A stretch of 64,000 nucleotides of DNA from a bacterium. Lineage in GTDB: Bacteria; Hinthialibacterota; Hinthialibacteria; OLB16. The notes beneath the pieces are model-generated. The model worked only from the letters and a program-made list of their open reading frames with translations. It had not been told where the DNA came from and did not search any database. Positions 53,243 to 57,681 of the stretch are shown here, one piece after another. The DNA lies in the NCBI GenBank assembly GCA_022072055.1, contig JAJVIK010000004.1, forward strand, positions 150,820 to 214,819. Reading direction: 5' to 3'. Made by a program: the position numbers and the translations under genes. How positions within the stretch are numbered: position 1 is the stretch's first letter; each line of letters begins with the position of its first letter.

Positions 53243-53488
53243 ATGAAGGCATCCTTTCTCGATTTGAGGCGAAACCCCGGGAAAATCCTTGACGCGATCA
53301 ACCGCGAGGAGACGGTCACGCTCTCTCGCCGGGGGAAGACCATGGCGCGCATTGTGCCGATTCAGGGCGAGCGCACCGCGCCGGTGGAGACTCATCCGGC
53401 GTTTGGGATGTGGAGGGACCGCACCGACCTGGAGAGCCCGGCTCAGCTGGTTCGGCGGTTTCGAAAAGGTCGCTTCGATGCTCTTTGA
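53243..53488 (+). CDS. Phd/YefM-type antitoxin
   Basis: 81 residues, GAGGAG 9 bases upstream. KASFLDLRRNPGKILDAINR and EETVTLSRRGKTMARIVPIQ form the Phd/YefM fold, followed by a toxin-wrapping C-terminal tail (FGMWRDRTDLESPAQLVRRF). It overlaps the PIN toxin gene by 11 bases. It binds DNA and neutralises the toxin. Confidence 0.9.
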   Translation: MKASFLDLRRNPGKILDAINREETVTLSRRGKTMARIVPIQGERTAPVETHPAFGMWRDRTDLESPAQLVRRFRKGRFDAL

Positions 53489-53858
53489 CACGGACATCCT
53501 GATCTGGTGCCTGCGCGGCAACCCACGCGCGGCGCGCGTGGTGGATTCCGACTCCATGCGCGCAACCTCGGTGGTCAATGTCATGGAACTCCTCCAGGGG
53601 TCGCGTGACAGGAAAGAGGTTGGATTGATCCGTTCGTTCTTGAAGGACCTGGGATTTGAGGTCATCCCGCTTACCGAGAACATCGGTCACCGCGCTTTGG
53701 TTTACGTGGAGGAATACGCGCTCAAATCAGGGTTGCACGTGGCCGACGCGCTGGTGGCCGCAACCGCAGTGGAACGGCAGGCCATTCTATGCTCTGGGAA
53801 TCTGAGGCACTACCGCGCGATTTCGGAACTGGAGGTGAAGGGGTTCCGGGCGGAATGA
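53478..53858 (+). CDS. vapC: VapC-like PIN-domain ribonuclease toxin
   Basis: 126 residues from the ATG at 53478. MLFDTDILIWCLRGNPRAAR holds the first PIN acidic residue (DTDI), VVNVMELLQGSRDRKEV the conserved Glu, and LHVADALVAATAVERQAILC the late DALVAATA motif with the final metal ligand Asp. All four acidic positions appear present. It is an RNase that targets tRNA or rRNA in known cases. The partner belongs to the Phd group rather than the AbrB-type VapB, which is a common combination. Confidence 0.92.
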   Translation: MLFDTDILIWCLRGNPRAARVVDSDSMRATSVVNVMELLQGSRDRKEVGLIRSFLKDLGFEVIPLTENIGHRALVYVEEYALKSGLHVADALVAATAVERQAILCSGNLRHYRAISELEVKGFRAE

Positions 53859-54046
53859 TGACGATCGAGGGCGAGGATTTGGTCGGACCGGCGAAGGGGG
53901 AATTCATCGCGCCGCCGAAGGTCGAGGTGGGTTGGAAGGGCGGTGCAATACGAGTTCCCGAGCGGCGGCAAGAAGTGGGTCGCCTGCAGGGCGCGGGACG
54001 ACATGGGCGGGGAGGGGCAGTGGACCGCCGAGATCGAGGTGGAGTA
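53855..54046 (+). pseudogene. Frameshifted small ORF remnant of unknown family
   Basis: Starting at the ATGATG that overlaps the vapC stop, one frame reads MMTIEGEDLVGPAKGEFIAP then PKVEVGWKGG. About 90 bases in, good coding sense shifts by one base and continues as VQYEFPSGGKKWVACRARDD then MGGEGQWTAEIEVE before TAG at 54044. The two halves look like one short protein of about 62 residues with a single-base indel. I do not recognise it; a sequencing error is an alternative explanation. Confidence 0.4.
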
Positions 54047-54071
54047 GGCTATTTGTCACGGAGGCCGGATC

Positions 54072-54374
54072 ATGCATGCACAGGTTCAATTGGATGCGGA
54101 AGTCCTGGCGGAGTTTTGCCGGAAATGGCGCATCCGGGAATTGTCGCTCTTTGGCAGCGTCTTGCGGAACGATTTTGGGCCGGAGAGCGATCTGGATTTC
54201 CTGGTAAGTTTCCTGCCGGACGCGGGTTGGGATTTGTTTGATCTCATCACGATGAAGCAGGAACTGGAGGAGCGGTTCGGGCGGCCGGTTGATCTGGTGG
54301 AGAAAGAGGCGTTGCGGAATCCGTGGCGCAAGCATGAGATTCTGCGAACGCACGAGGTAGTTTATGCGGCATGA
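54072..54374 (+). CDS. mntA: MNT-domain nucleotidyltransferase antitoxin (MntA-like)
   Basis: 100 residues. IRELSLFGSVLRNDFGPESD LDFLV contains the GSx10DxD nucleotidyltransferase motif and RPVDLVEKEALRNPWRKHEI the third Asp and typical C-terminus. In type VII HEPN/MNT systems this enzyme AMPylates and silences the HEPN toxin encoded next to it. Here the overlapping downstream frame encodes only the first residues of a HEPN protein, so the antitoxin seems to be left without its partner. The ATG overlaps nothing upstream; 25 bases separate it from the fragment before. Confidence 0.88.
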   Translation: MHAQVQLDAEVLAEFCRKWRIRELSLFGSVLRNDFGPESDLDFLVSFLPDAGWDLFDLITMKQELEERFGRPVDLVEKEALRNPWRKHEILRTHEVVYAA

Positions 54375-54486
54375 CGTGAAAGACGCGGCGCGCCTGTGGG
54401 ACATGCTGCTCCGCGACCGCTCGCATCCCCCGGACGGACGTTGCGGAGCTGGTCCTTCCGCCGATCCGCATAGGACGCCGGGCTAA
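54364..54486 (+). pseudogene. Truncated HEPN (DUF86) toxin remnant
   Basis: 40 codons beginning inside the MNT gene. MRHDVKDAARLWDMLLRD resembles the start of DUF86/HEPN toxins (M-R/H-D...LWDML), after which the sequence RSHPPDGRCGAGPSADPHRT ends at TAA without any HEPN helix bundle or the RX4-6H catalytic motif. A deletion just after the first helix is the likely cause. Confidence 0.6.
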
Positions 54487-55134: not shown

Positions 55135-55737
55135 TTGCGGATCAGGGATGCCTTGTCAGCAATGGATATAGAGGATCCAAATCCACATGCCGACCTCTGG
55201 GTGTGGTATGGGAAATGGAGCGATGGCAGTCTTCCGACCTATCAGTCACGGCGACGCTACATCACGGACCTCTACGAGCCGCTACTCGATGCCCTGCATT
55301 CCACCAGCAGGACTGTGATCAAGCCTCAAGAGCCAACGGGCTGGATGCGAGTGGATAGGAGCATGGAGAAGATCGGCAACGCGCTGGAACGGGCGCGGGA
55401 TGAAGAGGATTTCCAGTCTGTCGGCCTTCTCTGTAGAGAAGCCGTCATTTCCCTCGCTCAGGCCGTCTACGACCCCGAGAAGCACGGTGCCCTTGATGGC
55501 GTGCCGCCAAGTCCGACGGACGCCAAGAGAATGCTGGAAAGCTACATTGCACAGGAACTCCAGGGGTCGGCATACGACTACCAGCGGAAGTTTGCTAAAG
55601 CGGTCTTCGACCTTGCCGTCAATCTACAACACCGCCGCACTGCCAAATTCAGAGATGCAGCGCTCTGTGCCGAGGCAACGCGCTCGATGATCAATACGAT
55701 TGCCCTGCTGTCGGGGCAGAGGGACCCAGAAAGATGA
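55135..55737 (+). CDS. Possible abortive-infection-type helical protein, uncharacterised
   Basis: 200 residues from a TTG at 55135 (GAGGAAC upstream); ATG at 55162 is an alternative. WVWYGKWSDGSLPTYQSRRR in the N-terminal half and GLLCREAVISLAQAVYDPEK, PSPTDAKRMLESYIAQELQG, AVNLQHRRTAKFRDAALCAE in the C-terminal half look like a recurrent bacterial family in which the latter part is a HEPN/Abi-like four-helix bundle (RR.A.FRDA with nearby His resembles the RX4-6H motif). Abi or RNase activity is therefore a guess. The gene ends directly at the first attC-like site, so it may be a captured cassette. Confidence 0.68.
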   Translation: MRIRDALSAMDIEDPNPHADLWVWYGKWSDGSLPTYQSRRRYITDLYEPLLDALHSTSRTVIKPQEPTGWMRVDRSMEKIGNALERARDEEDFQSVGLLCREAVISLAQAVYDPEKHGALDGVPPSPTDAKRMLESYIAQELQGSAYDYQRKFAKAVFDLAVNLQHRRTAKFRDAALCAEATRSMINTIALLSGQRDPER

Positions 55738-55740
55738 GAC

Positions 55741-55817
55741 GGCCAACAACACTTCGCAGCCCCCAAAATGCCCCGCGCGGACGCGGGCCATTTTGCGGCT
55801 GAGGGCGGGCGTTAAGA
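55741..55817 (+). repeat. attC-like integron recombination site 1
   Basis: The site opens GGCCAAC (R-double-prime-like) 3 bases after the stop of the 200-residue gene and ends GGGCGGGC-GTTAAGA (R-prime-like, GTTRRRY consensus missed at one position). Between them CGCAGCC (L) pairs with GGCTG, enclosing a 14-bp hairpin (CAAAATGCCCCGCG, loop CGGA, one C-C mismatch). The symmetric imperfect fold with the core AAC/GTT sites matches integron attC structure. No integrase is present in this window. Confidence 0.5.
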
Positions 55818-55854
55818 ATACGATAAACTACACGACCCAAAAGGAGAACCATCC

Positions 55855-56133
55855 ATGCCCATCCACCTCGCGCTGTTCGAGAACGACCTGACGAGCGATC
55901 CGGACGACTACGCCGTACACGAAGCGTGGATCGTGTTCCGTCTGAATGAGGCGCCCATCAGGACGGAGCGGGAGGGCGACTTCGATGCCGTGTGTCTGAT
56001 GGATGCGGCGAGTTGCTATATTCTCGGCATGGAGTTGGTCGCCGCCAGGGCGGCCGAAGTTCCAGCGCCCGTCGCGGAGGGTCTGATCGAGACGGGGAGG
56101 GCTGCGGTCAACGGGGAGGCGGACGATGAGTAA
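55855..56133 (+). CDS. Small protein of unknown family; also present as a second partial copy
   Basis: 92 residues, AAGGAG 10 bases upstream. MPIHLALFENDLTSDPDDYA, EAWIVFRLNEAPIRTEREGD and FDAVCLMDAASCYILGMELV form a compact alpha/beta-looking unit; the last 25 residues are Ala/Glu-rich. A near-identical 138-base stretch recurs at 56895-57032. I do not recognise the family. It is followed, with an 8-base overlap, by the RhuM-nuclease fusion, so the two might form one module. Confidence 0.72.
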   Translation: MPIHLALFENDLTSDPDDYAVHEAWIVFRLNEAPIRTEREGDFDAVCLMDAASCYILGMELVAARAAEVPAPVAEGLIETGRAAVNGEADDE

Positions 56134-56809
56134 GCGCAAGAATCCACAGATTTCGCAAATGGACGCAGATAAGAACAAGAAGCAGAAAAACCATCTGCGC
56201 AAATCTGCGCCATCTGCGGATAGCGATTCATCCACCCCGCCTTCGGGCGAATTGCTGATCTACGAGTCCCAGGACGGGCGGATCAAACTGGACGTGCGGC
56301 TGGAAAGGGAATCCATCTGGCTCACGCAACCGCTGATGGCGCGGTTGTTTCAGACGACGCAGCAGAACATCAGCCAGCATATTCTCAACATCTACGAGGA
56401 AGGGGAACTGGCGCCGGAGGCAACTCACAAGAAATTCTTGTCGGTTCGCCAGGAAGGCTCCCGGCGGGTCCAACGGGAGCTGGATTACTACAATCTCGAC
56501 ATGATCATTTCGGTCGGCTACCGGGTGAAAAGCCTGATCGCCACGCGGTTCCGCATCTGGGCGACGGAACGCCTGCGGGAATACAGGCCGGACTTCCTGA
56601 TTCGCCTGACGAACGGCGTGATGCTGGTGCTGGAGACGAAGGGGCAGGAGACCGAGCAGGACAAAGTGAAGCGCCGCTATCTCGACGAATGGACTCAGGC
56701 GGTGAATGCGCACGGAGGGTTCGGACAATGGCACGCGGCTGTTGTCCAGGATCCCGGAGAGATTCGGGACGCTCTGATGGCCCATGAGACGAGAGAATCC
56801 AAGGGCTAA
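56126..56809 (+). CDS. RhuM-type DNA-binding domain fused to PD-(D/E)XK restriction-enzyme C-terminus
   Basis: 227 residues. Residues 1-38 come from an inverted-repeat element. Residues about 40-150 are the N-terminal half of a RhuM/virulence-type protein (GELLIYESQDGRIKLDVRLE, ESIWLTQPLMARLFQTTQQN, ISQHILNIYEEGELAPEATH, YYNLDMIISVGYRVKSLIAT, RFRIWATERLREY). At residues 151-156 the sequence changes to PDFLIRLTNGVMLVLETKGQ, the PD...ExK nuclease motif from the extreme C-terminus of a DEAD-helicase/type III restriction subunit, and continues RRYLDEWTQAVNAHGGFGQW to the end. The join is in frame at a shared REY. Its stop lies inside the second attC-like site. The protein could be a functional novel nuclease or a deletion scar. 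Confidence 0.8.
   Translation: MSKRKNPQISQMDADKNKKQKNHLRKSAPSADSDSSTPPSGELLIYESQDGRIKLDVRLERESIWLTQPLMARLFQTTQQNISQHILNIYEEGELAPEATHKKFLSVRQEGSRRVQRELDYYNLDMIISVGYRVKSLIATRFRIWATERLREYRPDFLIRLTNGVMLVLETKGQETEQDKVKRRYLDEWTQAVNAHGGFGQWHAAVVQDPGEIRDALMAHETRESKG
56142..56221. repeat. Inverted-repeat element (29-base arms)
   Basis: Left arm 56142-56170 (begins ATCCACAGATTTCGCAAATG) and right arm 56193-56221 (begins ATCTGCGCAAATCTGCGCC) are both 29 bases and match as reverse complements at 22 of 29 positions, 22 bases apart. The arms are built from ATCTGCG-type heptamers. Similar CAGATTTGCGCAGAT-rich sequences are dispersed in many bacterial genomes. It supplies most of the first 32 codons of the RhuM fusion. 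Confidence 0.7.
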
Positions 56810-56862
56810 CAATCGCATGCAGCGGACGCCCTGGGGTGCGCCGCTGATTTTGAGCATTCGAA
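56804..56862 (+). repeat. attC-like integron recombination site 2
   Basis: GGCTAAC (56804-56810) contains the stop codon of the RhuM fusion, as is usual for cassette ends. CAGCGGACGC pairs with GCGCCGCTG around an eight-base loop, leaving an extrahelical A, a hallmark of attC folding. The far end (CATTCGA region) does not match GTTRRRY, so the site may be decayed. Confidence 0.45.
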
Positions 56863-56894
56863 TTGAAGGACGCCCCCCCTTGCCCCATCCCCGC

Positions 56895-57032
56895 GACTAC
56901 GCCGTGAACGAAGCGTGGATCGTGTTCCGTCTGAATGAGGCGTCCATCAGGACGGAGCGGGAGGGCGACTTCGATGTCGTGTGTCTGATGGATGCGGCGA
57001 GCTGCCATATCCTCGGCAATGAGTTCGTCGCC
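56895..57032 (+). pseudogene. Second, truncated copy of the 92-residue gene
   Basis: About 93% identical over 138 bases (10 differences) to 55906-56043. It encodes DYAVNEAWIVFRLNEASIRT and EREGDFDVVCLMDAASCHIL but lacks the original start and ends in an unrelated tail. Frame is conserved, and several changes are silent, suggesting an older duplication. It has no ribosome binding site of its own. Confidence 0.7.
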
Positions 57033-57071: not shown

Positions 57072-57275
57072 ATGAATCGACGTGAATTGACATCTCGCGT
57101 TATCCGTCCGGGCCAGCCGATTCCGCCGGACGACGAGTGGCTTGACGACTCCGTTGAGGAGCGGGTTGTGGCCGTGTGGACTTTAACAAAACTATGTTAC
57201 GCGTGGGGACAGGAGGATGTCGGTGAACCGCGACTTCATCGAGATATTAGCAGCGTTCAACGCCCACTCCGTTGA
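57072..57275 (+). CDS. Small partner protein of the second nucleotidyltransferase
   Basis: 67 residues from the ATG at 57072, preceded by GGGAGGCGG. NRRELTSRVIRPGQPIPPDD, EWLDDSVEERVVAVWTLTKL and CYAWGQEDVGEPRLHRDISS fit a short helical family that typically sits before a DUF6036-type nucleotidyltransferase. Its 3-prime end overlaps that gene by 59 bases in another frame, so the two are translationally linked. Confidence 0.72.
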   Translation: MNRRELTSRVIRPGQPIPPDDEWLDDSVEERVVAVWTLTKLCYAWGQEDVGEPRLHRDISSVQRPLR

Positions 57276-57681
57276 GTATATCATAGTCGGAGCCCACGCC
57301 ATGGCTGCCCATGGGCATGTTCGCGCCACGAAAGACCTTGATATCTGGGTGCGGCCAAGCGACGAAAACGCGCCGAAGGTCCTCGCCTCGCTGGTGGAAT
57401 TCGGCGCTCCACTCCATGATCTCACAGAGGCGGATTTGGCAACGGCGGGGACCATTTTTCAAATCGGAGTCCCCCCGATCCGGATAGACATCCTCACTGA
57501 GATTGATGGCGTGGCGTTCGAGTCGGCTTGGCCTGATCGCATCGACGTGCAGATTGGGGGTATTTCAGTCCCGGTCCTTTCGCGTCATCACTTGATGGCC
57601 AACAAGCGAGCGTCAGGGCGTCTCCAGGATCTGGCGGACTTGGAGAGGTTGGAGAAAGATGAGGGACGAAGGACGGAGTGA
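57217..57681 (+). CDS. Nucleotidyltransferase-fold protein (DUF6036/AbiEii-like), second copy
   Basis: 154 residues, AGGAGG... immediately upstream of the ATG (spacing is short). SVEYIIVGAHAMAAHGHVRA TKDLDIWVRP carries the G-x(n)-DxD nucleotidyltransferase signature, IRIDILTEIDGVAFESAW the third acidic residue and ISVPVLSRHHLMANKRASGR LQDLADLERL the C-terminal helix. It is similar in layout to the protein at 22890-23348 but only distantly related in sequence. Both may be stress or defence modules. Confidence 0.86.
   Translation: MSVNRDFIEILAAFNAHSVEYIIVGAHAMAAHGHVRATKDLDIWVRPSDENAPKVLASLVEFGAPLHDLTEADLATAGTIFQIGVPPIRIDILTEIDGVAFESAWPDRIDVQIGGISVPVLSRHHLMANKRASGRLQDLADLERLEKDEGRRTE

Follow-up and report, generated by a model that had tools for sequence, protein, structure and literature searches.

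Deletion-derived chimeric pseudogenes that remain in frame are a known kind of sequence. RhuM-like genes have been noted in restriction-modification loci, and a toxin role has been proposed for them (PMC3710099). In the window, i.e., the whole stretch of 64,000 nucleotides analysed here, a RhuM sequence is joined in frame to the end of a BPTD_3080-type restriction subunit (res) within a single open reading frame (Table 1). We regard this ORF as a recent, neutral, in-frame scar, that is, the remnant of a chimeric gene, with a probability of about 0.83. Illegitimate recombination at a microhomology, TGCGG(G/A)AATACA, would have linked a RhuM gene to a res gene of BPTD_3080 type. RhuM would thereby have lost its final two thirds and res some 950 codons, and the frame would have stayed open by chance. 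The product, if made, would comprise the N-terminal part of RhuM and an incomplete nuclease core, and would most likely be inactive.

Table 1. Features of the fusion ORF and its immediate surroundings (positions in the window).
Feature	Position	Strand	Composition or basis
Orphan 92-aa ORF, its end overlapping the fusion start (ATGAGTAA)	55855..56133	+	
146-nt direct repeat, left copy (copies 91% identical, 989 nt apart, flanking the fusion)	55898..56043	+	
Possible ribosome-binding site GGGGAGG, 6 nt 5' of the ATG	56113..56119	+	Direct reading
Fusion ORF, 227 aa	56126..56809	+	38-residue tail, RhuM N-terminal part (~39-153), BPTD_3080-type restriction subunit C-terminal part (154-227)
RhuM-derived DNA, 83% identical to the L028 RhuM gene	56244..56585	+	blastn
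Join TGCGG(G/A)AATACA common to both parents, 11/12 (exact AATACA 56580-56585)	56574..56585	+	
Restriction-subunit-derived DNA, 95.3% identical to L004:10498-10752 (contig C2), including the stop codon	56574..56828	+	
Truncated PD-(D/E)XK nuclease segment, P155-D156 ... E170-x-K172	56585..56806	+	
attC-like hairpin containing the fusion stop codon, left half common to the C2 res gene end	56803..56870	+	
146-nt direct repeat, right copy	56887..57032	+	

In the first half of the fusion, residues 99–153 match PF13310 (Virulence_RhuM; E value 2.5e-20). The score of 73.3 bits exceeds the cut-off (33.7), but the match spans profile positions 1–55 of 252 only, as that of a truncated member of this family would. 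The RhuM-type models of PADLOC (PDC-S05, PDC-S23) and the relatives found in genomes align with residues from about 41 to 153 and end there. Within the RhuM family (PF13310; PADLOC candidate PDC-S05), residues 41–153 share 88% amino acid identity with the RhuM of a Candidatus Hydrogenedentes bacterium, while profile positions 56–252, about 220 residues of a typical protein, are lacking. The C-terminal RhuM part beyond the (R/K)EY-I-x-KGF point is absent, and res sequence stands in its place. At least 180 residues follow this point in 62 of the 75 RhuM relatives with a readable end; the other 13 stop early, among them the closest relative (L028), after 38 residues.

In the second half, residues 149–219 match NF046055 (restr_BPTD_3080; E value 5e-20) at profile positions 896–968 of 970, with 71.1 bits against the cut-off of 800 set for the full-length protein with helicase and nuclease. 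The genome's own res gene of this type (L004:7650-10733, contig C2) adjoins a type III-like methylase gene. It is 86% identical in amino acids and 95% in DNA over residues 150–227, and has the stop codon and the following 19 nt in common with the fusion. About 950 of its residues, comprising the helicase and the start of the nuclease domain, have no counterpart in the fusion. The profile of PHROG 190 (Holliday junction resolvase, a different nuclease family) also touches residues 146–184 (E value 2.3e-4). The preliminary description had proposed an in-frame fusion of a RhuM DNA-binding half to the PD-(D/E)XK end of a restriction enzyme, and indeed two families meet at one point. When the halves were searched separately each matched its own family only, the C-terminal half matching restriction subunits and not RhuM, the reverse of what the preliminary description had named as refuting the fusion. 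The DNA-binding role ascribed to the RhuM half is a putative one, taken at the level of annotation.

At the crossover the two parental DNA stretches overlap by 12 nt in blastn, and the gapless 255-nt match to the C2 copy runs through the stop codon plus 19 nt (TAACAATCGCATGCAGCGGACG) before it ends. Since the join reads CTGCGGGAATACATCG in the RhuM gene (L028), GTGCGGAAATACAGGC in the C2 res gene and CTGCGGGAATACAGGC in the window, the parent switch is placed within AATACA. A shared run of at least 6 nt at a random blunt join would have a probability of about 0.0013, a figure that presumes true parents resembling L028 and L004. The microhomology join put forward in the preliminary description is borne out by this overlap and exact run; the REY said to be shared at the switch is found in RhuM, whereas the C2 res gene reads RKY. 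There is thus good support for illegitimate recombination at microhomology as the probable mechanism of joining. The deletion that had also been proposed is possible between neighbours, but the parents were not seen side by side. No adjacent pair of RhuM and res genes from which a simple deletion could have made the fusion was found, there being no RhuM near the C2 res gene, no second RhuM gene in the genome (5.86 Mb, 32 contigs searched), and no res of BPTD_3080 type within the RhuM loci fetched. With the RhuM parent missing from the genome and the res copy placed on a different contig, either a deletion between neighbours or the joining of distant DNA may have been involved.

The fusion has the catalytic P-D and (D/E)-x-K residues, P155, D156, E170 and K172, which do not vary among the aligned res C-termini, and it retains all 17 invariant columns of that alignment (alignments A2, A4 and A5, in which res pieces were misplaced, were left out). 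In the model of the intact homologue L131 (pLDDT 74, pTM 0.68) the join maps to residue 96. Upstream of it lie a helix (residues 56–67), strands 71–76, 84–88 and 91–95, and the near-invariant KNDHLGF; the helix starts at a Trp-Glu found in every aligned sequence covering that position. Strands 99–103 and 108–113, helix 119–138, strand 144–149 and the last helix (L131 numbering) are retained. The PD-(D/E)XK core of the fusion is incomplete, its first helix, first strands and KNDHLGF being gone, and what is left is predicted to be the second half of the core. No solved structure was matched by sequence. The best solved-structure matches of the intact domain are TnsA chains (E values 4e-4 and 9e-4; TM-scores 0.40–0.43), a rough likeness only. 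In TnsA the third catalytic residue is a glutamate from an upstream helix. The predicted structure of the fusion itself is of low confidence (pLDDT 47.6, pTM 0.34), and neither helps nor harms the reading as a compact nuclease.

Among the collections searched, the fusion was found in one genome only. None of the 124 matching plasmid records and none of the 49 matching phage records cover at least 80% of the query, those listed being RhuM alone; the relatives (145, then 386 genomes) and the viral contigs have RhuM alone or res alone; and of 386 stretches of RhuM or res type in 84,980 species genomes, the best 80 likewise have one or the other alone, although such searches could miss rare or distant cases. 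An apparent second fusion in G027 (L024, alignment 19–199) proved to be a RhuM gene with an internal deletion and without res, and a 1675-aa open frame around RhuM in G133 is an ordinary 363-aa RhuM beside an apparent restriction-modification gene.

Over 74 codons the window and the C2 copy differ at 9 non-synonymous and 2 synonymous sites, which gives a dN/dS of 1.35; the 498 upstream res codons of C2 and G111 have an omega of 0.08. With an omega of 0.15, the chance that at least 9 of 11 differences are non-synonymous is 0.0015. Polarisation with G111 assigned 4 non-synonymous and 2 synonymous changes to the C2 branch, and 2 non-synonymous changes remained without branch assignment. At least one copy appears to be relaxed, perhaps mainly that on C2; substitution data alone cannot prove the fusion unconstrained, because the window branch accounts for no more than 3 of the 9 non-synonymous changes, and these are confined to the tail, where conservation is weak. 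The fusion also keeps the 44 most conserved RhuM columns without change, which is as expected of a recent event under either reading, functional or neutral. The open frame, which had been taken as a sign of retention, says little in that respect: at a neutral divergence of 2–4%, 57–32% of such frames would stay stop-free (substitutions only), and a deletion derivative on contig C8 is open too.

The same genome holds two further res-like genes which look like deletion derivatives. The BPTD_3080-type remnant L124:1410-1819 (contig C29) has family residues ~65–120 joined to 833–880 with the loss of about 710 codons; its frame is broken, and a second deletion lies near the nuclease motif. The derivative on contig C8 (L122:676-1941) is an open 421-aa ORF that combines a nuclease end with the part of a type III-like res containing Walker A; the helicase middle is missing and a repeat-like stretch, PSPSGRGVGGEG, lies inside. 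The methylase gene beside res on C2 (L004:4744-7899) has an in-frame insertion of a DUF559 nuclease-like domain (residues 646–751); GC-rich repeats close to it can likewise be translated as protein.

The attC-like sequence TAACAATCGCATGCAGCGGACG opens with the fusion stop codon and likewise starts with the stop of the C2 res gene. That the frame stops in such a site had been held to favour retention; because the stop came with the res parent, it gives no support to that argument. No attC site with both consensus boxes (RYYYAAC / GTTRRRY) was found in 50–61 kb of the window, where the hairpins are attC-like only, and the genome has no integron integrase match above the TIGR02249 cut-off; integron cassettes without an integrase exist. 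Lone attC-like hairpins stand behind genes at 55735–55822 and 56803–56870 of the window and at L109:1497-1560, and the motif TAACAANNGCATGCAGCGGACG has 3 genomic occurrences as against 0 for the reversed control. The orphan ORF upstream of the fusion has no relatives in 386 genomes, and the ORFs holding the copies of the 146-nt repeat have no family match. Small toxin-antitoxin-like genes (53243–54404 and 57217–57681) include a PIN-like ORF, identified by eye, a PDC-S09 nucleotidyltransferase-like ORF and a DUF6036-like ORF. With genes of this kind around the fusion, the region might form a small cluster of defence genes.

A rival reading is that of a functional chimera which has been retained, with the RhuM part guiding or regulating a compact nuclease formed by the C-terminal segment, whose core might be completed through dimer formation. 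The open frame, the plausible ribosome-binding site and the conservation of the P-D and E-x-K residues and of every invariant res column argue for it. These res columns, the unchanged 44 RhuM columns, the ribosome-binding site and the overlap with the upstream ORF also speak against a scar. Nevertheless, the core has lost KNDHLGF, its first strands and its first helix, the one that bears the conserved Trp-Glu, the chimera occurs in one genome only and there is no sign of selection, so that we consider this reading very unlikely. Slightly more doubtful still is a stable protein of the RhuM N-terminal part and the second half of a TnsA-like core that would cut or nick DNA as a small enzyme, the missing half being supplied by a partner or through dimerisation. 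Of the two outcomes left side by side in the preliminary description, the compact nuclease with RhuM targeting is disfavoured by a nuclease domain cut through its core and by the absence of the fusion from every other genome searched. The neutral scar is favoured by the same cut, by the single genome and by the res-like deletion remnants within it.

The truncated RhuM part might also be active alone, binding DNA or exerting a dominant-negative effect, for instance, with the res tail acting only as a stabilising C-terminus. Residues 41–153 are intact with none of the 44 columns changed, PADLOC has short RhuM-type models of 83–174 aa, and several relatives end soon after the join point; yet such short forms may be remnants themselves, and the chimera is not conserved, which makes this alternative improbable. 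It is hardly credible that two genes were falsely joined during assembly or binning. The assembly comprises 32 contigs, its contamination stands at 2.05%, and assembly can also create microhomology joins, but the res-like segment, at 95%, falls short of full identity to the other copy, and lies inside a 432-kb contig with downstream DNA unlike that of the C2 copy. On balance, a function for the fusion is unlikely.

As a scar, the fusion would be a clean example of defence-gene decay in which the parents, the join and the microhomology are all readable. Because the frame stays open, annotation pipelines could call it a RhuM family protein though most of RhuM is gone. A functional fusion would reveal a new route by which small, targeted nucleases can arise, but the evidence points against this. 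The fusion resembles deletion-derived in-frame chimeric pseudogenes in the microhomology at its join, its occurrence in a single genome and its make-up of mobile defence-gene fragments, and differs from them only in its particular pair of parents.
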